Part shown: positions 3,749 through 36,547 of the stretch, in pieces
How the letters are laid out: every line of letters starts with the position of its first letter
Numbering within the stretch: position 1 is the stretch's first letter
Origin: Fibrobacter sp.
GTDB lineage: Bacteria; Fibrobacterota; Fibrobacteria; Fibrobacterales; Fibrobacteraceae
Length of the DNA: 36,547 nt
Assembly (NCBI GenBank): GCA_012511955.1
Contig: JAAZFC010000042.1
Span: forward strand, 1-36,547
Reading direction: 5' to 3'
Notes under the pieces: generated by a model
Told to the model about the DNA's origin: nothing
Database searches by the model: none
Seen by the model: the letters and a program-made list of their open reading frames with translations, nothing else
Position numbers and translations under genes: made by a program

Positions 3749-6700
3749 TTATCTAGTTCTTCTAAAACCTTGGGGCATGGGTACTTCTTTGCCGTCTTCT
3801 GCCAGTAGCATCAAATTATCTATACGCATATAACCACTACCTTGTCCCCTAGCTTGCCATTCAAATTGTGTGATTAACTTCGGGTCTAAAAGTCCGCAAG
3901 GTTTGCCCCACCCTTCCTGAGCCATATCTTCCCAAAAAACAGTATCACGCACCCAAGTTCCTTTGGTGTTGCGCAAAAGTTTTATATAATCATCATAGTC
4001 CTTTACAGGTTCTGATAAAGCCATAAATTGAAAATAACCATCATTTGAGTCGTGAAAAGTGGCGTAATCGAAAATCACCCCTGACAAACGACCAAACTCG
4101 GGCTTGGTAAACAACTCTCTTTCAATGGGTAAATGCGCCGAGACAAAATTGGGCCACCCCTGCCCTTCAGGCTGTAAAATGTAAAAATCTCCATGCAGAT
4201 ATCCCCCCATGGGCGGTGGTCCGGGTATTATCTTTAAATCGAGCTTAGTGCCGTTTCGTCCATGGGCATAAACAAACCATTCTGATTGATCTGGCTGATC
4301 GGATTGCAAAGTTACCCCTTTATCAAATAGCGACAAAGGAGCCACAGTTCTGGCTTCGCCTTGAATACGATATTTTAATAACCACGCCCCTACCTGATCA
4401 CCTGCGGCTCGCGTGGTGATTTCTAAGCGATGTTCTCCGGGTTTAGTATTGTGTGGAATAGGGATTTGCAAACGCAAGCCTTCCATGGAACCACCCCATT
4501 GCCCATCTGATGGGAAAATTTCCCCTGGTCCCCACACGCTCTTGTAATCAGCTCCTAATACAGCACCATTTTCTTGAATTACCGTACCCCAAATATCTAT
4601 GGTATCACCGGGTTTTAACACATTGCGAGTCATGGCCAAATGTTGCATCAATACGGGTTCATCAGCCAATGGTATGCTACCCCATTGCACCAAAGCAACA
4701 CCTTGGGGAGGCAACATTATTTGTAACACGCTATCTGCGGCATGTCTATTGGCCCACGCTCCCATACCCGGTGCTGCATAAGCCTTTAAATCTGTACCTT
4801 GCCAGTTAAAGTTTGTCTCGCTAAAAACAAAGCTCTGCATGGGAGAGCTATGAGAACTGGGCACATTTAGCTCTACTTTTACAGGTTCTGCCCTAAAGTT
4901 AAGCAATAAAACATTAATAGAGTCTTTGTTGCCCAAAGCAAAAACTCGCACCATGGAATCGGGGTTATTGACTGGTAAAACAGCAAATCCTTGGCGTTGC
5001 CATTGGGTTTGCGCCAAATACAAAGCGTGGTATTGCGATGAAGGGCTATGATTTCCCCAACTACTGTATGCCCAAGGATGTACGGGATTAAAAAGCCTTA
5101 AACTTCCACTTGTACCATCGGGACCGGTTTGAAAGCCACCGTAAACATCCCAGGGCAAAGCGTGCCCGCGATCGCCAAAACGCACGGCAAAATCCGCTAA
5201 CAGACTCAATACGGCGGTGCCTTGTACGGCTTGTTGGGTCAAATGCGTGCCCACCACTGTGGAAGAATATTCGGAATAAGCCACGCGCCGCTTATCGCCA
5301 TCTTTAAAATGTTTCCGCAGCCAAGTAGCTAAAGTATCCATCATAGGCCCGGGACGGCGGGTGGAATGTAGCATAGTGGCTGCGTCACCAGTTTTATCGA
5401 ACCAATAGGGGTAACTGTGGAAATCCACGCCATCTAAATAGCGTTTTTTATCTTTAATTTCAGCTTCGGCCACGACTTTCAGAAATGTTTCCATCCACGA
5501 GCGGCCGCTGTATAGGCCGTCGCCTTTAGTGAACCAATCGGCGGTGCTATGCAGCGGTCCATAGACCCTAATGCTGGGATCCACCGCTTTCATAGCTTTG
5601 GCAAAAGCTATGTAGCGTCGGGCGTATTGGGTGGCCGACAAAGGACCGCCTTCTTCCCAATCTCCGTCGTTTTCGTTGCCCACTTGCCAATCGCGGATTT
5701 TGAAACCCCGCACTTTGTTGGCGTAGCGTACCCAATTCGCCGCTTCAGCTGGTGTACCGGTGGCTACATTGACGCTTATCACTGCCTGTCCCTGGGGCAC
5801 GGATTGGACCCAGGCCATAAACTTCTCAAAATCCCATTTAATATCGATCCAATCCGCCCGCACTTTACCGCCAATATGGGTGGACATAGCCCAAGTGCGG
5901 GTTTGGGCCCCAGGGTCGGGCACATTGCGCGTAACTTGTTCGCCTTGACTCCACAAACGGATTTGCCCCACTTGCAAACCCTGTTTGGGCAAATGTTTTT
6001 TCTGCACGCGTACTGCCCAAAACCGCCCGGAAATCGGGGTGAATTTCTTTTGCGTGCGCTCTTGTGTCGCCTTGCCCACAAAAGCATTTTTCCACTTGTT
6101 TACATGGTTTTGTTGGGGGCCAGGGTAAACTGCATCTATGCTATCCCACACAGCTAAAGCAAAGCTTTTGGGGCGATACTTTCCCCACACAATTTCCACA
6201 GAATCCACAGCGTGTACTGTCCCCAAATCGAGCACAAACCAAGGCAAATCCACATTGTCATCTATGCTTCCCCACCAAAGCGTGGTGTCATTGCCGTCGG
6301 TGAGGTGCGAAGCTCTTTTGAAGCCATAGTTATCTTTACTAGTTCCCCTAAAACGGCTTTCCACCAAAAAACCAGGCTTATATTCTTTATGGGTGGTAGC
6401 CCAAACACCATTTTCATCAAATTTTCCCTCTCCATTCCAGTGATAATCGTTGGACAAAGAACCATTGGGAAAGCGAAACCAATTAAAGCCCGCATCAATT
6501 AAAAATGGTTTAAACTCTGCATAATCGTCTGGTTTGTTCCAAATTGCTAAATCAGCTCCAAAGGCACCATCTAAACTCATTTTAATTCCTGGCTGAGAAG
6601 GATCTATGGAGATTTTCAATAATTCTTGAGAGCTTTGCACATTTTCGGGCCCTGTAGATGCTGGACCACCCAAAGGCAAACCCGGCAATCTTTCTGCCCA

Positions 6701-6995: not shown

Positions 6996-9900
6996 ATGAA
7001 TTTTAAGCCCAAGTTTTTGCACAAACTCTTTGTAGCAACACTTTTTTTCTTTTTCTCTTATGGAATCAGCTTTGCCCAAGATACTGGCAACGAAGCACCA
7101 ACAGTAAGTGGAATTCCATCACAAACTATAGATGAGAAGCAGCAATTTAGTCCTATTAAATTAGATGATTATGTTAACGACCCCGACGACAAAGCAAACA
7201 CAATAACTTGGACTGTTTCTGGACAAAAAGATTTAGTTATCACCATAAATAATAGGGTTGCCAACATAAGAATCCCCGACAAATACTGGAATGGTTCTGA
7301 AACCGTAACCTTTATTGCCAAAGATCCCAAAGGAGCCACCGGGGCAGAGACTATCACTCTCACCGTAAATTCCATTAACGACCCTCCAGTGGTGAAAAAA
7401 ATCCCCAATCAAACCATCAATGAAGGTTCAGAATTTAAGAAAATCAAGCTAGATGATTATGTGTCTGATCCTGATCATCCAGCAGAGCAAATAAATTGGC
7501 TTGTAGATTTGCAACAAATTAGCAAAGAAAAAGCTGATGGCGAATTAAATATCATCATAAACGAAAATAGAATAGCATCTTTAGTACAGCCCGATACCAA
7601 CTGGTTCGGAGCCTATAAAGCTACTTTCACAGCCACTGATGGTGAAGGTGCCAGCGATAAGACTGAAGCAGTTTTTACCGTTAATCCTGTTAATGACGCA
7701 CCTATTTTACAAGCAATTCCCAGTCAAGCCATTGACGAAGGCCAAGAGTTTGAAGTGATAAACCTTATGTCCTATGCCTCTGATGTGGATGACGATATAA
7801 ACACACTTAAATTCACTGTTACAGGAGGTAGAGGTCTCAAAGCTTCTATAGATAAGTTTAATATTTTATCTATAAAGATCCCTGATAAGCATTGGAATGG
7901 GCCCGAAGAAACTTTTACCATTACTGTTACTGACCCCCATGGAGCCTCAGCTCGCACCACTGCTAAATTTTTAGTACGCTCGGTAAATGATCCCCCCGAA
8001 CTTAAAACTATCCCCAATATCACCGTAGATGAAAAAAAGCCCATACCTTCCGTGGACTTGTCTAAGTATGTAACTGATGTGGATCATAGCTTTGAACAGC
8101 TAAAATGGACTTTTACCGGACAAAAAGAATTACAGGTCCAAAAAGCTGGCAGAATGTTAAATTTTAAAGTTCCCTATTTGCACTGGAATGGCACTGAAAC
8201 CATCAAAATATTAGTAGAAGACCCAGAAGACGGCAAAGATGAAGGAGAAGTAACTGTGATGGTAAACTCCATAAACGATAAGCCTGTCATTGGGAATATT
8301 CCAGGACAAAATATTGATGAGGGAGAAAAATTCAAGGCTATTAAGTTAGATGATTATGTGAGCGATTTAGACCACAAAAACAACGAATTAAGATGGGAAA
8401 CCAATCTAGTTAGCAAGAACAAAGTGAACCCTTTCGGTGAACCTTATGTGGAAATTAATGATAAAAGAATTGCAAATATCGTGCAACCCGACACTAACTA
8501 CAACGGTAACTTTAGCATCACTTTCACTGTGACTGATCCCGAAGGCGCTCAAGACGAAAAGACTGTTAACTTTGCGGTGCGCTCCATTAATGACCCTCCT
8601 ATACTAAAAAAGATTCCTAATCAAACCATTGATGAAAAGAATGAATTTACTCCTATATATTTAGATGAATATGTAAGTGATGTAGATCACAGCAATGAAC
8701 AGTTAAGATGGGATGCTAGAGGGCAAAAAGATTTACGCGTTACTATAAGCAAAGATCGCATTCTCACAGTTAAAGCACCTTATGAACACTTCAATACTGC
8801 TGGAGAGAAAGTTCTTTTGACCGTAACGGATCCTGAAGGCGGCAAAGACACCACCACAGTTATCTTTAAAATAAACTCTATCAACGATCCTCCTGTGATG
8901 AAAGATATTCCCAATCAAAGCATCCAAGAAAAGCAAAAGTTTGTCACTATAAACTTAAACCAATATGTAAGTGATATTGATCATAAAAATGACCAGTTAA
9001 AATGGACTTTTAGTGGCAATAAAGATTTAAAAATTGAAGTTAATGATGCTAGAATAGCCACTGTTGTTATTCCTAACAAATATTGGAATGGTAAAGAATA
9101 CATAACATTCACAGTTACTGACCCAGAAGGTGCCAAAGATGAACGCAATGTTGTTTTCACAGTTGTATCTGTAAACGATCCTCCTGAATTAACCGCTATT
9201 CCTACTCAAGTTATAGATGAAAAACAGCAGTTTAAACCTATCAAGTTAGATGATTATGTCAACGATCCTGACCATGCTAAAGATATGCTCACTTGGGCCA
9301 CTAAAGTAAGCAAGCCTCAAGGAGTAAGAGGTCAAGCTGAGCTAAGTGTGGAAATTGATGCTTCCCGTGTAGCGCGCATTAAAATCCCCAATAAATATTG
9401 GAATGGCACTGAAAACATTAGCTTTACTGTAACGGATCCTGACGGCGCTAGCAAAACTGTTAGTACGCGCTTTACCGTAAACTCCATTAACGATTTACCT
9501 AAAATCTCTAAAATTGAAAATCAAAAAATTGACGAAGGTCAAAAATTTGTAAATGTCAATTTAGATGAATTTGTGGAAGATCCTGACCATCCCAAAAACA
9601 GCCTACGCTGGGTGGTAGAGGGCGGCAAAGAGCTCAAAGCATCCATAAATGCCAATAGAGTCTTAAGCGTAGCTATTCCCCACAAACATTGGTTTGGAGG
9701 TCCTGAACTTTTTGTATTAATAGTCACTGACCCCGAAGGTGGTGCTGATACCGCAAAAGTAAGCTATACCGTAAATCCTGTGAATGACCCCCCTGTGCTT
9801 ACTGAAATTCCTTCACAAAAAATCATGGAAAAAGCGCAGTTTAAAGTTATAGAACTTGATAAATTTGTAACTGATGTGGACAACACCCACGAAGAACTAA

Positions 9901-12900
9901 AATGGACTTTTGCTGGCAATAAAGATTTGAAACTCAATGTAGATGCTAAAAGAAATTTAAGTATCACAGCGCCAAATAAATATTGGAATGGCGAAGAAAC
10001 CATCACCTTTACAGTGAGTGACGGAGAGTTCCAAGAGCAATGCACTGCTACTTTTACCATAATATCAGTTAATGATATACCAGAGGTAATTAAGCCTTTG
10101 GCCCCACAAATCATTGATGAGAAAAAGCAATTCGCTAAGATCAACTTAAAAGAACATGTTAAAGACATGGATCATAAGTTTGAAGAGCTAAAGTGGACTG
10201 TAAGCTCAGTGCCTGCTGGTCCCCCTAAAAGAGGAGCAAAAGGTGAGCTAAAAGTTGACATTGATAGCAAAGGCATAGCTACCATAGTTATCCCTAATAA
10301 ATACTGGAATGGCTCTGAAGTCATTACTTTTGTGGCCACAGATCCCGATGGTGCTAAAGCCACGCTTAAGGAAACTTATACCGTGCGCTCTATCAACGAT
10401 TTACCTGTTATTAAGAAAATTGCAGCTCAAAAAATCAACGAAAAAGAAAAGTTTAGCGACATTAATTTAGCTGAATATGTTTCTGATCCAGATCACTCTT
10501 TAAAAAGTTTAAAAATTGAATTTAGAGGACAAAAAGATCTAAATTTAACTCTAAATAAAGATTTAGTGTTAAAAATTGCCACCCCAAACATCTATTGGAA
10601 TGGCACTGAAAAAATAATTATGACAGTAACGGATCCCGAAGGTGGAAAAGCTCAAGATACTTTGAGTTTCACCGCTGTTTCCATTAACGACTTACCTGAA
10701 ATCACAGGCTTTAAAGGTCAAAAAATCATGGAAAAAGCAAAATTTGCACCCATTAATCTAGATCCTATTGTTAAAGATCCTGATCACCAAAATAAAGAAC
10801 TTAAATTTACTGTAACTGGCTTGAAAGACTTAAAAGCAACCATAAGCCCTGCTAGAGTTTTAACCATTGCTACTCCTAATAAATACTGGAATGGTAAAGA
10901 AACTTTGACTTTAACAGTTACTGATCCTGAAGGTGGAAAAGCAGAAGCTACTGTTGATTTTGAAGTGGTTTCAGTCAACGACTTACCCGAATTGAAAAAT
11001 ATTCCTGGGCAAACCATTGATGAAAAGAAACAATTTAAGGAAATTAAACTTTCTGACTATGCCCACGACCCTGACCACAAATTTGAAGAACTAAAATGGA
11101 CTGCCACGGTAGCCCCCATGGTGGCTCCTAGACCTGTTAGAAGAGGTCAAAAAGCACCTCCTAAAGAGCCAGACTTAGATGTGGTATTTGAAAAAGGCAT
11201 GGCGCGCATAGTTATCCCCGACCAATATTGGAATGGGCAGCGCAAAATCACCTTTACAGTTACTGACCCCGAAGGTGGAAAAGCCTCTACTACTAGCAAT
11301 TTCACCGTGCGTTCCATCAATGACTTACCTGTAATTGACAAAAGTTTAATTAACAAGGTATTTACCATCGATGAAAAAGAGAAGTTTGAGCCCATCAATT
11401 TAAGGGAGATGGTTAAAGACCCAGATCATGCTATTAATCAATTAAAATTCACTGCAACTGGTGCCAAAGCGTGTGCTGTAACCATAAGCCCCCAAGGTGT
11501 GCTCACCGTGAAACAACCCGATAAATACTGGTTTGGTAAAGAAGAAGTTAATCTTACTGTAACTGACCCCGAAGGTGGCAAGGCAGAAACCAAACTCACC
11601 TTTGTAGTCAAACCTGTAAATGATCCCCCGGTAATTACAAAGTTTGCAGCCCAAACCATCAAAGAAAAACAAAAATTCGTAGAAGTGCGCTTAGATGACA
11701 TTGTTAAAGATCCTGACGATAAGCCTGCGGATATGACTTGGACTGTAACGGGTAATAAGGCTCTACAAGTTGTGATAACCGAACAGCGGGTACTGAAAAT
11801 CAATATACCTGACAAATATTGGAATGGAGCTGAAACCTTAAAGCTTACTGTGAAAGATAAAGCTGGAGCATCTGCTACTGCGGAAGCAAAATTCACTGTA
11901 ATTTCCGTAAATGACCCACCGGAAATGAAAACTATCCCCGAGCAACGCATTAAAGAAAAAGAAAGCTTTAAAGTCATTAACTTAGATGATTTTGTTCACG
12001 ATCCTGACCACAAAAAAGAGGAACTAAAATGGGCTGCCACTGTAGCACCAGTTGCACCTCCCCCTGCCAGACGAGGACGCAAACCTGCCCCCGCTCCAGA
12101 AGACATGAAAGTGGAAATAAATGCTGAACGCAAAGCAAAAGTAACTTTACCCAACAAGTATTGGAATGGAGAAAGAAGTATTACTTTCACCGTTACCGAC
12201 CCCGAAGGCGCAAAAGCTTCGCAAAAAGTATTATTTCATGTAACTTCTATAAATGATGCCCCTGTTTTAGCCAAAATTGAAAACCAAAGAATTGATGAAA
12301 AACAAAAGTTCAAAGCCATCAATTTAAGGGAATTAGCCTCAGATCCTGATCATCCAGTGAACCAGCTTAAATTCACTGTAACTGGAACCAAAGAATTAAA
12401 GGCCACAGTTTCACCCCAAGGCGTATTAACAGTGGCTCAACCTAACAAATTCTGGTTTGGTAAAGAAGAGTTAACTATCACTGTTACTGACCCTGAAGGT
12501 GCTAAAGACAGTAAAAAAGTATGGTTTGTAATAAATCCCATCAATGACCCTCCTCAAATCACTAACATAATTAAGAATGTTACTATTAAAGAAAAAGAAC
12601 CATTGCCTATTCTAGACTTAAACAAAGCGGCCACTGATGTGGACAACAAAACAGAAGAGCTAAAATGGTCTTATAGTGGTAATAAAAACTTAAAAATAGA
12701 GTTCAGCAAAGCTAAAAACGCCTATCGTTTATCCCCCATTGATCCCCAATGGAATGGTACGGAAAAAATCACTTTTACCGTAACTGACCCCGATAGCGCT
12801 AGCGACTCTAAAACGGTTTCTTACACTATTTTAAGAGTTAACGACGCTCCTACACTAAAAGCATTGCCTTTGCAAAAAATCAAGGAAAAAGCAGAGTTTA

Positions 12901-14186
12901 AGCCCATAGATTTACGCAAAATAGCTGCGGATCCCGATAACAAAATCGAAGAACTAATGTTTACCATAGACAATGCCGTGCCTGCTTTTGTAGGTCCTGG
13001 CAAACGCAGAACTCCCGCCAGAGCTTCTACGGTAAAAAGAGTTATGAAATACAATATTGACAAAGATGGCGTATTGCATGTTAGCCAACCATACAATCAT
13101 TGGAATGGCAAAGAAACAGTTAAAGTTACTGTTTGGGATCCAGAAAAAGCTTCGGCTTCCATTGAGGTACAGTTTGAAGTGGAATCTGTAAATGATGCCC
13201 CTGAAATCATTAAAGATTTTGCCGATATTACCATTGATCAAGGCAAAACCTTTGCGCCCATCAAGTTAGACCAATATGTAAAAGACTTAGATCATAAAAA
13301 CCATGAACTAAAATGGACTGTGAGTGGAAATCGACAACTAGATGTAACCATAAACAGCGGTAGAGAAGCTTTGATTAAACCCAAACGCAAAGAGTGGTTT
13401 GGTCAAGAAAAGTTAACTTTCACAGTGACTGATCCCGAAAAAGCAAGCGCAACTATGAGTGCTATGTTTGTAGTACGACATGTAAATGCGCCCCCTGTGT
13501 TAAAAACTATTCCCAACCAAACCATTGACGCAGATACGCCTTTTAAGCCCATCAAAATGGACGAAATGGCCAGCGACAAGGATCATAGAAATCACGAATT
13601 AAAATGGACCGTAACAGGAAATAAAGAGTTAATAGTGGATATTGATCAACTAAAACGCGAAATTCGCATTAGATCGCCCCGCGAACACTGGTATGGCGGA
13701 CCTGAAACCTTAACCTTTACCGTTACTGACCCTGAAGGTGCCTCAGCCACACGCAAAGCAAACTTTAGAATGCTTCCAGTAAATGACCCACCAGTGGTAC
13801 TACCTCACCGTTATACTACTAGAGAAGGAGAAGAGCTAAGAGTTTCTGTAGATAACGGTTTGTTAAACAACGCTTGGGATCCAGATGGCGTAAAACCTAA
13901 TCTTTGCTATGTGGTCAAACCGCCAGTAAATGGAAAAGTTGTACTGAAACTTGATGGCTCATTTGTCTATACTCCCAAACCAGGTTTTTCTGGTATAGAT
14001 GAATTTACCTTTAGAGCCAGAGATAGAGAAGGTTTGTATTCTAAACCTGAAAAAGCAGAGATATCAGTAACCTTTAGAATGCAGGACTTGCGTAAATCTG
14101 ATACTCCAAAACCTGCAGCAAAGAAAGGAACAACGAAGAAAAGACCAGCTGGTAGAAAAGCTGCACCACGCACCAAAAAGCGTTAG
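6996..14186 (+). CDS. Giant secreted protein with 22 tandem cadherin/Ig-like repeats and a basic C-terminal tail
   Basis: This 2396-residue protein has a signal peptide (cleavage after about Ala27) and then 22 tandem beta-sandwich repeats of about 97-117 residues (residues about 33-2266). The repeat signature runs: IPNQTIDEKQ..F..I.LDDYV, DPDH, LKW...G.KDL, IP.KYWNG.E, FTVTDPEG, VNDPP. The NDPP, DxD and DPEG elements resemble calcium sites of cadherin-like and tandem Ig-like domains. A different final domain (about 2267-2360) matches the cadherin-like/Big_9 type (DGSFVYTPKPGFSG). A 36-residue tail rich in Lys, Arg, Ala and Pro ends the protein. No LPXTG, T9SS sorting domain, RTX nonapeptide or membrane anchor is visible. 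Likely a surface adhesin, stalk or matrix protein; this is inferred from architecture. Every third repeat carries an extra basic loop. It is monocistronic: GGAG before the start and a strong terminator after the stop. Confidence 0.85.
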   Translation: MNFKPKFLHKLFVATLFFFFSYGISFAQDTGNEAPTVSGIPSQTIDEKQQFSPIKLDDYVNDPDDKANTITWTVSGQKDLVITINNRVANIRIPDKYWNGSETVTFIAKDPKGATGAETITLTVNSINDPPVVKKIPNQTINEGSEFKKIKLDDYVSDPDHPAEQINWLVDLQQISKEKADGELNIIINENRIASLVQPDTNWFGAYKATFTATDGEGASDKTEAVFTVNPVNDAPILQAIPSQAIDEGQEFEVINLMSYASDVDDDINTLKFTVTGGRGLKASIDKFNILSIKIPDKHWNGPEETFTITVTDPHGASARTTAKFLVRSVNDPPELKTIPNITVDEKKPIPSVDLSKYVTDVDHSFEQLKWTFTGQKELQVQKAGRMLNFKVPYLHWNGTETIKILVEDPEDGKDEGEVTVMVNSINDKPVIGNIPGQNIDEGEKFKAIKLDDYVSDLDHKNNELRWETNLVSKNKVNPFGEPYVEINDKRIANIVQPDTNYNGNFSITFTVTDPEGAQDEKTVNFAVRSINDPPILKKIPNQTIDEKNEFTPIYLDEYVSDVDHSNEQLRWDARGQKDLRVTISKDRILTVKAPYEHFNTAGEKVLLTVTDPEGGKDTTTVIFKINSINDPPVMKDIPNQSIQEKQKFVTINLNQYVSDIDHKNDQLKWTFSGNKDLKIEVNDARIATVVIPNKYWNGKEYITFTVTDPEGAKDERNVVFTVVSVNDPPELTAIPTQVIDEKQQFKPIKLDDYVNDPDHAKDMLTWATKVSKPQGVRGQAELSVEIDASRVARIKIPNKYWNGTENISFTVTDPDGASKTVSTRFTVNSINDLPKISKIENQKIDEGQKFVNVNLDEFVEDPDHPKNSLRWVVEGGKELKASINANRVLSVAIPHKHWFGGPELFVLIVTDPEGGADTAKVSYTVNPVNDPPVLTEIPSQKIMEKAQFKVIELDKFVTDVDNTHEELKWTFAGNKDLKLNVDAKRNLSITAPNKYWNGEETITFTVSDGEFQEQCTATFTIISVNDIPEVIKPLAPQIIDEKKQFAKINLKEHVKDMDHKFEELKWTVSSVPAGPPKRGAKGELKVDIDSKGIATIVIPNKYWNGSEVITFVATDPDGAKATLKETYTVRSINDLPVIKKIAAQKINEKEKFSDINLAEYVSDPDHSLKSLKIEFRGQKDLNLTLNKDLVLKIATPNIYWNGTEKIIMTVTDPEGGKAQDTLSFTAVSINDLPEITGFKGQKIMEKAKFAPINLDPIVKDPDHQNKELKFTVTGLKDLKATISPARVLTIATPNKYWNGKETLTLTVTDPEGGKAEATVDFEVVSVNDLPELKNIPGQTIDEKKQFKEIKLSDYAHDPDHKFEELKWTATVAPMVAPRPVRRGQKAPPKEPDLDVVFEKGMARIVIPDQYWNGQRKITFTVTDPEGGKASTTSNFTVRSINDLPVIDKSLINKVFTIDEKEKFEPINLREMVKDPDHAINQLKFTATGAKACAVTISPQGVLTVKQPDKYWFGKEEVNLTVTDPEGGKAETKLTFVVKPVNDPPVITKFAAQTIKEKQKFVEVRLDDIVKDPDDKPADMTWTVTGNKALQVVITEQRVLKINIPDKYWNGAETLKLTVKDKAGASATAEAKFTVISVNDPPEMKTIPEQRIKEKESFKVINLDDFVHDPDHKKEELKWAATVAPVAPPPARRGRKPAPAPEDMKVEINAERKAKVTLPNKYWNGERSITFTVTDPEGAKASQKVLFHVTSINDAPVLAKIENQRIDEKQKFKAINLRELASDPDHPVNQLKFTVTGTKELKATVSPQGVLTVAQPNKFWFGKEELTITVTDPEGAKDSKKVWFVINPINDPPQITNIIKNVTIKEKEPLPILDLNKAATDVDNKTEELKWSYSGNKNLKIEFSKAKNAYRLSPIDPQWNGTEKITFTVTDPDSASDSKTVSYTILRVNDAPTLKALPLQKIKEKAEFKPIDLRKIAADPDNKIEELMFTIDNAVPAFVGPGKRRTPARASTVKRVMKYNIDKDGVLHVSQPYNHWNGKETVKVTVWDPEKASASIEVQFEVESVNDAPEIIKDFADITIDQGKTFAPIKLDQYVKDLDHKNHELKWTVSGNRQLDVTINSGREALIKPKRKEWFGQEKLTFTVTDPEKASATMSAMFVVRHVNAPPVLKTIPNQTIDADTPFKPIKMDEMASDKDHRNHELKWTVTGNKELIVDIDQLKREIRIRSPREHWYGGPETLTFTVTDPEGASATRKANFRMLPVNDPPVVLPHRYTTREGEELRVSVDNGLLNNAWDPDGVKPNLCYVVKPPVNGKVVLKLDGSFVYTPKPGFSGIDEFTFRARDREGLYSKPEKAEISVTFRMQDLRKSDTPKPAAKKGTTKKRPAGRKAAPRTKKR
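7092..13793 (+). repeat. 22 tandem cadherin/Ig-like domain repeats (about 290-350 bp each), organised in threes
   Basis: I counted 22 consecutive units by their N-D-x-P linkers. All 22 carry a DxD followed by His (16 units), Asp (3) or Asn (3) in the first third of the domain. Units 2, 5, 8, 11, 14, 17 and 20 have an inserted loop after the conserved Trp/Phe, beginning near 7497, 8394, 9294, 10194, 11097, 12030 and 12960. The intervals are 897, 900, 900, 903, 933 and 930 bp. The inserted lengths relative to a loop-free unit are about 8, 8, 8, 10, 18, 17 and 20 residues. Units 15, 18 and 21 share WFG where most others have WNG, and 15 and 18 are especially alike. A three-domain block is therefore the probable unit of duplication. 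Confidence 0.85.
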
Positions 14187-22398: not shown

Positions 22399-23514
22399 CT
22401 AAAAGCCTGCTTTTTGGGAACCAGCTGCACGAAAAAGACGGTCATTGATTGCAAGTCCTAGACTTTCTTCGGGGAGAGCCACCGCCACAATTCTTTTTAC
22501 TGGCAAAGCATCTAATTTACGCATATAGGCATATAAATTCACCGCCGCTTGGGATAAATCTCCCGTAGGAGAAAGCTCTTTGCACACATAAAAATCTTTT
22601 AAGCCCGACTCTTTTTGCAACAACAGCAAAGCGCTTTCCTGACGCCAAGTTCTATCCTGGGGCAAAGCTTGAATGCTAGGATAAAAAAGCATGGCTTTTT
22701 GGGGTGCATAATGGGATGCTGTGGTGCCGGGGGCAGGCAGCGGTTTAGAAACTCTCGTGGAATTTTCCGCTGCCTCGGTGGGAGCTTCCAGCTGATTTTC
22801 AGCGGTGGAGGCGGTGGAGGCGCCGGCTTCGGCAATGCTGTTTTCGGCGGTGGAGGCGGTGGAGGCGCCGGCTTCGGCTACGGGAACTCCCACTTGAATT
22901 TCCCCAATGATGTCTTGAATTGCTTCAAGGGGAATTCCCCCCGGCCGCAACAATACCACGCTTTCGTCCCAGAAAGCGACGATGGTGGATTCAACACCCA
23001 CACTACACGCTCCACCATCGATCACCCCATCGATGCGGCCATGCAACTGTTGCCACACTGCCTCAGCGGAGGTGGGGCTGATTTTCCCAAATAAATTGGC
23101 GCTGGGCGCGGCTAAAGGGAAACCGCTTTCGGCAATTATGCGACGCGCTAAATCATGGTCGGGGCAACGCACCGCCACTGTGGGTAATCCGGCGCTAATC
23201 AAGTCAGAAATGCTCTTTTTTTTGGGTAAAACCACAGATAATGGCCCCGGCCAAAATTTATCCATCAATTTTTGGGCCTTGGCCGGAACAAATTCCGCCA
23301 CTAATTCCACCTGTTCGGCATGGGATAAATGCACAATTAGGGGATCGAAAAAAGGACGCTTTTTGGCGGCAAAAATCTCAGCTATGGCATTGGGCATATC
23401 TGCCCGAGCAGCCAAACCATACACCGTTTCAGTGGGAATAGCCACCACTCCCCCACCGCGTAAAATTTCTATACCACGAGGGAGAGAAATAATGCCGTGG
23501 GGAGAATCATTCAT
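22399..23514 (-). CDS. L-threonylcarbamoyladenylate synthase, Sua5 type (YrdC + Sua5 domains)
   Basis: This 371-residue protein makes threonylcarbamoyl-AMP from Thr, bicarbonate and ATP for tRNA t6A37 modification. The YrdC domain (about 1-205) shows IPTETVYGLAA, KKRPFFDPL, AAPSANLFGKISPT and GVESTIV. The C-terminal Sua5 domain (about 262-371) opens with PAPGTTASHYAP and ends with LGLAINDRLFRAA. The linker between them (about 210-260) is unusual: an Ala/Ser/Thr/Glu-rich stretch containing two copies of a 15-residue unit (AEAGASTASTAEN plus two). Its DNA is far more GC-rich than the rest of the gene. The start overlaps the stop of the aminotransferase gene by one base (TAATG), so the two are translationally coupled. 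The single-domain TsaC type is excluded by the second domain. Confidence 0.92.
   Translation of the reverse strand: MNDSPHGIISLPRGIEILRGGGVVAIPTETVYGLAARADMPNAIAEIFAAKKRPFFDPLIVHLSHAEQVELVAEFVPAKAQKLMDKFWPGPLSVVLPKKKSISDLISAGLPTVAVRCPDHDLARRIIAESGFPLAAPSANLFGKISPTSAEAVWQQLHGRIDGVIDGGACSVGVESTIVAFWDESVVLLRPGGIPLEAIQDIIGEIQVGVPVAEAGASTASTAENSIAEAGASTASTAENQLEAPTEAAENSTRVSKPLPAPGTTASHYAPQKAMLFYPSIQALPQDRTWRQESALLLLQKESGLKDFYVCKELSPTGDLSQAAVNLYAYMRKLDALPVKRIVAVALPEESLGLAINDRLFRAAGSQKAGF
22796..22885 (-). repeat. Two tandem 45-bp repeats in the Sua5 linker
   Basis: Units at 22796-22840 and 22841-22885 share about the first 38 bases with one mismatch and then diverge. Within each unit a 9-bp GGTGGAGGC element is itself doubled. 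They encode the repeated AEAGASTASTAEN segment. Because the unit is a multiple of three bases, gain or loss of copies keeps the frame. Confidence 0.85.
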
Positions 23515-32943: not shown

Positions 32944-34002
32944 ATGAAAAGAACATTCTTATTAACAATTCTTTTAGCCAGTTTTTTATTTGCAGAACCC
33001 ATGCAACTGCTCTTTGATACCCAACTAGCAGAAAATAACAGAATATATATTGCCGTATTAGGCAACACTAATATCACTGTAGATTGGGGCGATGGAAAGT
33101 CTAACACCTATACCAAAGATGGTTATCATAGTCACACTTATACTTCCCCTGGAAAATACACTGTATCTATCACTGGAAGTCTGGAAAACTTTGGCAGACC
33201 TTCTCAAAAATTACCCGCATTGGTAGAGGTAATTTCTTTTGGCGATCTTGGTCTTAAGGGGTTAAACAACGCATTTGAAGGGGCCGACAATCTCACCAAA
33301 GTCCCCAATCAAATTCCTTCTTCGGTTACTAGTGTTGAAAAAATGTTTTACAATGCTATACAATTCAATGGCGATATCAGCAACTGGGATATGAGCAATG
33401 TAAAGAATATGTGCTGTATGTTTGCTAATTCTTTGGTATTTAATCAAAATATTGGCAACTGGAAGGTGAACAATGTTACAGATATGAGCTATATGTTTTT
33501 TGGAGCGCGAGCTTTTAACCAAAATATTGGCAACTGGGATGTGAGCAATGTTACAGATATGAGCTATATGTTTTATGGCACCCATGCATTTGATCAACCC
33601 ATTGGCAACTGGAATGTGAGCAAAGTTACAGATATGAGCTATATGTTTTATGGCACCCGTGCATTTGATCAACCCATTGGCAACTGGAATGTAGCTAAAG
33701 TTACCGATATGAGCTATATGTTTGCGGGAGCACAAGTTTTTAATCAACCCATTGGCAGCTGGAATGTTTTAAATGTGGAAAAAATGGGCTATATGTTTTA
33801 TCAAAACCCTATTTTTAATCAAGATATTAACGGTTGGAATGTGAGTGGGGTAACCAGTATGGGTAGCATGTTTAGAGAAACCAAAGAATTTAACCAAGAT
33901 TTAAACGACTGGGATCTCTATAGCTTAACTTACGCATGGAATATGTTTTATGAAGCAGAAAAATTTAATGTAAGATTGGCAATTGGCGCTTCCCGAACCT
34001 AA
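32944..34002 (+). CDS. BspA-like DUF285 surface protein, N-terminal part (ends at first frame break)
   Basis: This frame codes 352 residues: a signal peptide (MKRTFLLTILLASFLFA), a PKD-like domain (about 36-80, ITVDWGDGKSNTYT then YTSPGKYTVSI), a spacer, and then eight 25-residue DUF285 units from 33364. The unit pattern is F[ND]Q[DNP]I.NWDVSNVTDMSYMF. The frame is lost inside the ninth unit, where TTTAAT is followed by GTAAG in place of the expected six bases; this is a net loss of one base near 33970, with TAA at 34000. The last nine residues (VRLAIGASR onward) are out of frame and not native. Translation of the correct frame resumes as KIGNWRFPNLTSLDGMF. DUF285/BspA repeats occur on surface adhesins and lipoproteins of host-associated and fibre-attached bacteria. 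The break could be a real mutation or an assembly error in a repeat tract. Confidence 0.8.
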   Translation: MKRTFLLTILLASFLFAEPMQLLFDTQLAENNRIYIAVLGNTNITVDWGDGKSNTYTKDGYHSHTYTSPGKYTVSITGSLENFGRPSQKLPALVEVISFGDLGLKGLNNAFEGADNLTKVPNQIPSSVTSVEKMFYNAIQFNGDISNWDMSNVKNMCCMFANSLVFNQNIGNWKVNNVTDMSYMFFGARAFNQNIGNWDVSNVTDMSYMFYGTHAFDQPIGNWNVSKVTDMSYMFYGTRAFDQPIGNWNVAKVTDMSYMFAGAQVFNQPIGSWNVLNVEKMGYMFYQNPIFNQDINGWNVSGVTSMGSMFRETKEFNQDLNDWDLYSLTYAWNMFYEAEKFNVRLAIGASRT

Positions 34003-35072
34003 CTAGCCTAGATGGAATGTTTGACCGTACTCAGGCTTTTAATCAAGACATCAACGATTGGGATGTTAGCAAAATTACTTCTTTTTACTATACATTTGCC
34101 TACGCCTTGGCTTTTGATCAACCTTTGGATAAATGGGATGTGAGCCAAGGGGAAAACTTTGGGTATATGTTTTCTGGTTGTCAATTCAATCAAAATATTA
34201 ACAACTGGGATGTAAGCAATGCCACCTCCATGCGTTATATGTTTGCTGGGGACTCTGCTTTTAATCAACCCTTAGATAAATGGAAGGTGAGTAAGGTAAC
34301 TGACATGGAATCAATATTTAGCAGAGCCCGAGCATTTAATCAAGATATTAGCAGTTGGGATCTGCGTAGCGCTGTTAGTTTGCAGTCTATGTTTAACGAT
34401 GCCAGCGCTTTTAACCAAGATATTGGCAACTGGAATACAAGTAGTGTGGAAAATATGGGTTATATGTTTTCGGGGGCTACGGTGTTCAACCAAGATATTA
34501 GCAGCTGGGATATGAGCAATGTTAGCTCCACACGAGAAATGTTTGCTTGGACCCATGAGTTTAACCAAGATATTAGCAGCTGGGATATGAGCAATGTAAA
34601 CTATACAATCGACATGTTTAACGGTGCTAAGGCCTTTAATCAAATGGGAAGTAGGCAATGTGGTCAATATGTGGGGCATGTTTGCTAATACCGCCGTATT
34701 CAATCAAGATATCAGTGGCTGGGATGTGAGTCAAGTTAAGGATATGAATCGCATGTTTAGGAACTCTCAAGCTTTTGACCAAAATATTGGTGGCTGGGAT
34801 GTGGGCAATGTTACTAATATGCGAGAAATGTTTTATGGCGCTCAGGCTTTTAATCAAAATGTCGATAACTGGGATGTGAGCAATGTTAGCACTATGAGTA
34901 ACATGTTTGCTAATACCGCCGTCTTTAATCAAGATATTAGTGGCTGGGATGTGAGCAATGTTACTACTATGAGCCGCATGTTTATGAACTCTCAAGCTTT
35001 TGATCAAGATTTAAGTGCTTGGGATATTAGCAAAGTTAAATATATGGATTCCATATTCATCGATATGACTCT
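33364..35072 (+). repeat. About 23 tandem 75-bp DUF285 repeats
   Basis: Units of 25 codons run through three reading-frame blocks: 8 intact units, one broken, 8 intact, one broken, 5 intact. Some neighbours are nearly identical at DNA level: 33550-33624 and 33625-33699 differ at only about five of 75 positions, showing recent duplication. In the third block a 225-bp (three-unit) period is visible: the GTTTGCTAATACCGCC element at about 34680 recurs at about 34905, and CTCAAGCTTTTGA at about 34765 recurs at about 34990. Confidence 0.85.
33981..34644 (+). CDS. BspA-like DUF285 protein, middle block in a shifted frame
   Basis: This block continues the DUF285 array in another frame, from NWRFPNLTSLDGMF through eight intact units (for example FNQDISSWDLRSAVSLQSMF) to AKAFNQ at 34643. 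A short in-frame ORF from the ATG at 34017 runs on to a TGA at 34688, but its last dozen residues (MGSRQCGQYVGHVC) are clearly outside the repeat pattern. At 34644 about 11 bases of the expected unit (encoding D-I-x-N) are missing, and the original frame resumes at TGG 34645. The block is thus part of the same gene, not a separate one. It has no ribosome binding site or signal peptide of its own. Confidence 0.7.
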
Positions 35073-36547
35073 TTCCACCGCCAATTACGATAGCATTTTA
35101 TGCAATTGGAGCCAACTAGAGTTGCAAAGGAATGTAAAATTCGATGGTGGCAATAGTAAATACTCTCCAGGTCTTCCCGCTGCTTCTCGGGCGTTGCTAG
35201 AGAATGTTTACAACTGGCAAATTACCGATGGTGGCTCTCTCGAGATTGACAATGCGCCTCTGATTCTGGTTTTTGATACAGAATTGTCTCCCGGCAACAC
35301 CATTAGCCTAGCTTTAAATGATTATGTTGACGCCATTGTGGATTGGGGAGATGGAAATATAGACACAGTAAAAACCCCGGGGATCATAGAGTATGATTAT
35401 GCACAACCAGGCCAATACACGGTTTCCATCGCTGGGACTGTAATAACTTTTGGCGATGAAGATCAAACTACTCCCAACATAGAAAAACTAGTAGAAGTAA
35501 AATCTTTTGGCGATGTGGGACTATTTATTTTAAGCCGGGCTTTTAACGATGCCATTAATCTCCGCAAAGTTCCCGACACTTTGCCTGCCTCCATAAAACG
35601 CCTAGATTACGCTTTTACAGGGGCTACTTCTTTTGACCAAGACCTAAGTTCTTGGGATATTAGCAATGTGGTTTTCATGGATGATATGTTTGCAGGAACC
35701 GCTCTTTCCACCCCCAACTACAACCGAATTTTGGAACAGTGGAGTGCACTGCCCGTGCAAAATGGGGTAGAATTTAGCGTCGGAACCACCATGTATTCGC
35801 CAGGGACGCCCGCCACCGCGCGCCAAAAGCTTGAGTACGACTTTGGCTGGGATATCACCGATGGCGGCATCAGCGATTTACCCGCCATTACTGCCGCCAC
35901 GGTAGTGGAACTCACGGCCAGCGCGGCCAGCCTAAGCGCGGAACTAACCCATAATGGGGGCAGCGCAGTCACCGACCGCGGCTTAGTCTGGGCTACCACG
36001 CCTCAACCAATCTTGGGGCAAGATAGCGTGATAGCGGCGGGCTCCGAACTCGGGGAATTTAGCGCCTCTATCACCAACTTAAGCTGTGCGCAACCCTATT
36101 ATGTGCGCAGTTATGCCACCAATGACGCGGGCACCGCCTATGGTACCGAAATCAGCTTTGTTCTTCCCTGTGAACTCACCATTGCCGGTAATTTTATCGC
36201 CTCAGATAAATCTTATGATGGCAATTCCAATGCCACCATTAAAACCAATAATTTAGAGTTACAAGGAGCCGTAAGCAGCCACCAGGTTGAGTTAAGCGAT
36301 GTGGTGCTAGAATTTGCCCAAAGCAAAGCGGGCAAAGACCTTAAAATCAGCATTAAATCTGCGAAACTAAGCGGTGCCGACAAAGGAAACTACACCCTAT
36401 CAATGACAGGAGCGCCCACGGCCAAAGCAAATATTTCCGCCAAGGAAATCACCATTGCCGGTAGCTTTAGCGCCAAAGATAAAGCTTACGATGGCAAAAG
36501 TACCGCCACCATCAATAGCAACAAATTAAAACTCGAGGGTGTAATAA
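34645..36547 (+). CDS. BspA-like DUF285 surface protein, C-terminal part with PKD, FN3-like and YDG domains (runs off window)
   Basis: From TGG 34645 the original frame is open without a stop to the last base, 634 codons. The first in-frame ATG is at 34669, but this is the continuation of the gene starting at 32944. Order of modules: the end of a broken unit (WEVGNVVNMWGMF), five DUF285 units, a cap ending YSPGLPAASRALLENVYNWQ, a second PKD-like domain (VDWGDGNIDTVKTPG, about 35276-35430), one more DUF285 unit (FDQDLSSWDISNVVFMDDMF) with a second cap (YSPGTPATARQKLEYDFGW), and an Fn3-like module (about 35880-36170, ending YYVRSYATNDAGTAYG). Then come one full YDG domain (ASDKSYDGNSNATIKTNN) and the start of a second (AKDKAYDGKSTATINSN). 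YDG repeats are common in large adhesins. The anchor must lie beyond the window. Confidence 0.8.

Follow-up and report, generated by a model that had tools for sequence, protein, structure and literature searches.

The window, a stretch of 36,547 bp, is the whole of one contig (C10) of a draft genome (2.68 Mb, 150 contigs, 96.9% complete), whose T9SS tails and genome size suggest a lineage within Fibrobacterota. At its right-hand end we identify a repeat gene whose coding sequence is spread over three pieces in two reading frames (Table 1). The first piece encodes an apparent signal peptide (MKRTFLLTILLASFLFA, read from sequence only), followed by a PKD-like domain (25.9 bits, Pfam), units 1–8 of a tandem array and a short out-of-frame tail. 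The array is built from a 75-bp DNA unit that specifies 25 residues of the DUF285 (PF03382)/TIGR02167 "PARCEL" type, with unit starts at 33364 (unit 1), 33439 and onward to 34999 (unit 23) at a usual spacing of 75 bp. Matches to PF03382 reach 305.6, 238.9 and 199.6 bits for the three coding pieces (cut-off 25), and those to TIGR02167 reach 103.5, 83.2 and 71.9 bits (cut-off 30), so that by curated cut-offs the product is a PARCEL/DUF285/TIGR02167 repeat protein. Beyond the array come a second PKD-like/PARCEL module, a linker and a YDG domain (approximately 36172–36405; PF18657, 51.8 bits in the last coding piece), after which the gene leaves the contig end. The opposite strand of the array also carries long open frames. 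Automatic annotation will show three separate DUF285 proteins at this locus.

Table 1. Features of the PARCEL repeat gene, in window coordinates.
Feature	Position	Strand	Source or remark
ORF piece 1, 352 aa	32944..34002	+	ORF list; TAA at 34000-34002
Whole PARCEL/DUF285 array, 23 units of ~75 bp after one partial unit	33319..35058	+	frameshift-aware profile chain
Break 1, unit 9: GTAAG (5 bases) against six elsewhere, net -1	33970..33974	+	
Units 9 (rest) to 18 (start), second frame, open and stop-free	33975..34643	+	
First stop downstream of break 1 in the starting frame	34000..34002	+	
Unit 11, 72 bp, in-frame -3 (one codon, after 34184)	34113..34184	+	profile; absent from the sequence-only reading
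Break 2, unit 18: CAA-A-TGG, net -11	34641..34647	+	
Three-unit (225-bp) duplication inside the array	34644..34998	+	of which units 18-19 lie in 34644..34773
Gene remainder in the first frame, units 18-23 onward	34645..36546	+	ORF list; Pfam

Elsewhere in the window, a 2396-aa secreted protein (6996–14186, plus strand) has many tandem repeats with the recurring motif IPxQxIDEKxxFxxIxLxxYVxDxDH and is intact over 7.2 kb. An ORF resembling a Sua5/TsaC-type threonylcarbamoyl-AMP synthase (22399–23514, minus strand) contains an in-frame 45-bp tandem duplication of about two copies (AEAGASTASTAEN, 22791–22878).

We scanned the array with our own cyclic 25-position profile, which includes explicit frameshift steps. 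The resulting path is free of stops and changes frame exactly twice, by −1 after 33969 and by −11 after 34643. This agrees with the sequence-only reading, in which the array keeps one frame to unit 9, another across units 9–18 and then the first frame again, and which had correctly described a net loss of one base at GTAAG, a loss of about 11 bases and a distance of 674 bp between the two (33970 to 34644). Unit 9 (start 33964) measures 74 bp and unit 18 (start 34635) only 64 bp, with a single base separating CAA from TGG against 12 in the other units. The codon missing from unit 11 lies at the unit end, where such a loss is ordinary for the PARCEL family. The description of the outer parts as back in phase holds arithmetically but not in translation: between the two breaks the first frame is closed by ten stops (34000, 34009, 34141 ... 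34597), and a stop at 34686 ends the frame of units 9–18. The breaks thus compensate only as a sum, without any return of translation to the first phase. The longest ATG-initiated ORF of the middle frame (34017–34688, 223 aa) lacks a signal peptide.

That the paired, compensating arrangement calls for a special explanation is not borne out. The summed shift of two frame-breaking indels is divisible by three with a chance of 1/2, and two random sites occupy unit positions no more than 6 bp apart with a chance of 16%, giving a joint coincidence of about 0.08 for which no special mechanism is needed; the spacing of the breaks and their common unit position are unremarkable. Break 2 falls inside the three-unit duplication, in which units 18–19 match units 21–22 at 70–93% in steps of 45 bp. 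The copy in unit 21 is in frame and lacks the deletion, and so the loss of 11 bases is most simply placed later than the duplication.

The window ends inside the gene and holds no T9SS sorting domain. The missing 3' end is probably found on another contig, C25 (3468–3845, minus strand; L221), which begins inside a YDG domain, as C10 ends in YDG repeats at 36172–36547; we infer the join from these two ends. C25 closes with a match to the sorting domain TIGR04183 (40.4 bits, cut-off 23), which has 34 matches in this genome. Given a sorting domain at the probable 3' end, a product of 352 residues would lack the sorting signal.

A paralogue of 1181 aa lies on contig C43 (complement). Like this gene, it combines a signal peptide with a repeated module of PKD-like domain and PARCEL array; it has several arrays and a C-terminal region that resembles a sorting domain by eye. 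It differs in its intact frame, in the lack of a YDG domain and in a linker rich in Glu, Pro and Gly. On contig C150 (approximately 5691–5894, plus strand; L020), an open stretch of 68 aa holds a single PARCEL unit together with the motif that closes arrays; it is apparently the remnant of a lost PARCEL gene, which suggests that members of the family decay in this genome and that there were earlier losses. No close orthologue was found in the genus, which is represented by this genome only, or in the family or phylum, the best family matches being at most 55% identical, and a synteny search via the upstream MFS transporter returned only distant homologues and no syntenic locus. A family relative carries a run of separate PARCEL genes (L206; G063:C2:216000-230000, minus strand), several of which have a Lys/Ala/Thr-rich start followed by a common segment, VVAKDKNDLMKLIKAAIKKNGTNCDLNFI, just before the array, and no obvious signal peptide.

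The survey covered 141 loci, made up of the C43 paralogue, 60 loci of the same family or phylum and 80 drawn from the genome collection. Because these last 80 were selected for matching an intact stretch well, they are biased to unbroken arrays, the family set less so. The frameshift-aware scan found no solid frame break in 288 other PARCEL arrays (~2,870 units), nor any frame break in the 135 arrays of the family set alone. The sole frameshift of the survey (L035) is marginal and lies seven codons from an array end, and the sole stop codon, in a count that included codons skipped by the profile, lies near an array start (L172). Implanted lesions were recovered reliably, with 60/60 trials for single-base deletions, 59/60 for 11-base deletions, 58/60 for paired deletions and 60/60 for stops. 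At the upper bound of the survey rate, two breaks in 23 units have a probability of ~0.0003, a figure to be read with the knowledge that the locus was picked because it is broken and that one break leaves an array free to acquire another. In having frame breaks, this gene is an unusual outlier among PARCEL arrays. In seven cases two neighbouring arrays lay in different frames and were considered as further broken genes; these were rejected, each pair appearing to be two distinct genes, in which array 1 stops and array 2 has its own N-terminal stretch ahead. In-frame length changes across the 288 arrays cluster at residue 22 of 25 (735 of ~1,100), indicating that the end of the unit, and not the region near the FNQ motif, is where the family tolerates changes in length. 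Both breaks lie near the FNQ of their unit, away from the tolerated end.

We propose that the locus probably encoded a large secreted T9SS-type PARCEL repeat surface protein until its recent inactivation; of the four origins listed in the sequence-only reading, pseudogenisation is the best supported. Two small indels, −1 in unit 9 and −11 in unit 18, would most simply be independent events that broke the frame, the second being free to occur once the first had. Translation would end at 34002, and the predicted 352-residue product may still be exported; lacking the C-terminal sorting domain, it would not be displayed or anchored at the surface. The gene most likely makes only this truncated protein. 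The loss of 11 bases may have arisen as a short deletion, with a CAA direct repeat 11 bp apart as a possible source of slippage; six of the 23 units contain a second CAA at this distance downstream.

Supporting inactivation, the coding frame is interrupted where the intact relatives (the C43 paralogue and the 288 other arrays) stay in frame, and the lack of any solid break among those arrays indicates that members of the family do not as a rule function in a broken form. The three coding pieces contain no nonsense codons and show no further decay, which points to recent damage: from the 340 single substitutions that would produce a nonsense codon, and assuming uniform substitution, neutral divergence since the loss of constraint is below ~2.6% (95% upper bound). 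Most units score in the normal range; units 8, 9 and 11 rank among the lowest 3%, which may reflect decay or mere divergence. On the other side, the absence of further decay means that the case for a pseudogene depends on two sites, each of them within repeats of a draft assembly. The locus fits the normal birth and death of repeat surface genes and offers a clean case in which such a tandem-repeat gene has lost its frame in a lineage whose arrays otherwise keep theirs.

An artefact of assembly or consensus, in which mis-joined repeat units or mixed strains conceal an intact gene, is the main alternative, which we consider unlikely but still worth weighing. The draft is probably metagenome-derived (150 contigs, 2.95% contamination), PARCEL arrays elsewhere hardly ever show frame breaks, and the contig ends in YDG repeats that are 89% identical over 133 bp to C25, indicating that repeats troubled the assembler. 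Neither break, however, coincides with a homopolymer slip, and no exact repeat of at least 14 bp spans either one, leaving no k-mer overlap able to join two units there. A repeat-collapse junction was accordingly set aside as unlikely for want of a common exact repeat at either break. Across 32.8 kb of the same contig some 20 further genes are unbroken, the repetitive 2396-aa one among them, and so is the C43 array. The proposal of assembly junctions in a repeat tract is thus disfavoured in its repeat-collapse form, while error of a general kind keeps the limited probability given above. Far less probable is a nine-unit cassette recombined out of register, with both breaks made in one event. 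Such an exchange would account for the single frame of the block between the breaks, and PARCEL arrays are thought to shuffle (PMC2996958), but units 10–17 form no distinct group: their mutual similarity is 0.572, against 0.595 and 0.590 to the flanking units, and a sliding block of eight units peaks at units 7–14 and not at the breaks. Unit similarities show no rise at lag 9, and the three-unit similarity crosses break 2, which lies within that duplication, without a boundary. The rest of the genome holds no cassette donor and no near-identical DNA, only divergent paralogous matches.

The idea that an OFF state of a reversible, phase-variable surface protein was caught in the assembly draws on the frequent variation of repeat surface genes, among them the BspA-like genes of Ca. 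Mycoplasma girerdii, whose switching depends on the length of dinucleotide tracts (PMC5476646), and an M. agalactiae DUF285 gene with a difference in poly-A length (PMC2824730). We regard it as improbable, since simple-repeat tracts serve in both published cases and neither break here has a homopolymer of at least 6, a simple repeat or an inverted repeat. Neither a simple repeat tract nor an invertible element lies at the supposed switch points, and a return to ON would need the reversion of two unlike lesions. A switch of another kind, in which recombination between units reversibly changes the frame of a block and so turns the surface protein on or off, strikes us as slightly less probable again; if both in-frame and out-of-frame variants existed, this would amount to switching by whole repeat units, with no simple-repeat tract involved. 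We place least weight on programmed frameshifting or re-initiation that yields a full product or three separate proteins. All three frames are open and apparently constrained, and ORF 34017–34688 begins 14 bases past the stop of ORF 1, yet two different shifts nine units apart would be required, the middle ORF has no signal peptide, and no other array in the survey behaves in this way. The usable first overlap contains no classical slippery heptamer, the sole XXXYYYZ match (AAATTTA at 33961) preceding the opening of the second frame.

The locus shares with described PARCEL proteins (PMC2996958, Roske et al. 2010) the 25-residue tandem motif, the 75-bp unit, a secreted or membrane-targeted host protein and the long open frames opposite the array, a feature noted there for many PARCEL regions; it departs from them in carrying two frame breaks within one array. 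Dyad symmetry was assessed in that work with MEME palindrome motifs, and we found no inverted repeat of at least 10 bp in 33900–34720. Frameshifted DUF285 genes are reported in Mycoplasma agalactiae PG2, and the drp gene MAGa7470, with PG2 counterpart MAG6490/MAG6480, resembles our locus as a DUF285 surface gene split by a frameshift in one strain (PMC2824730); there the change is a poly-A difference (A6/A7) with an intact allele in another strain, whereas the lesions here are not in simple repeats. The BspA-like genes of Ca. Mycoplasma girerdii are likewise surface genes truncated by frameshifts (PMC5476646), although they do so through dinucleotide tracts of at least 5 repeats with length variants in the population, and our locus has no such tracts. 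PARCEL arrays and their loss by frameshift have thus already been described (PMC2996958; PMC2824730), and this locus is one more case.
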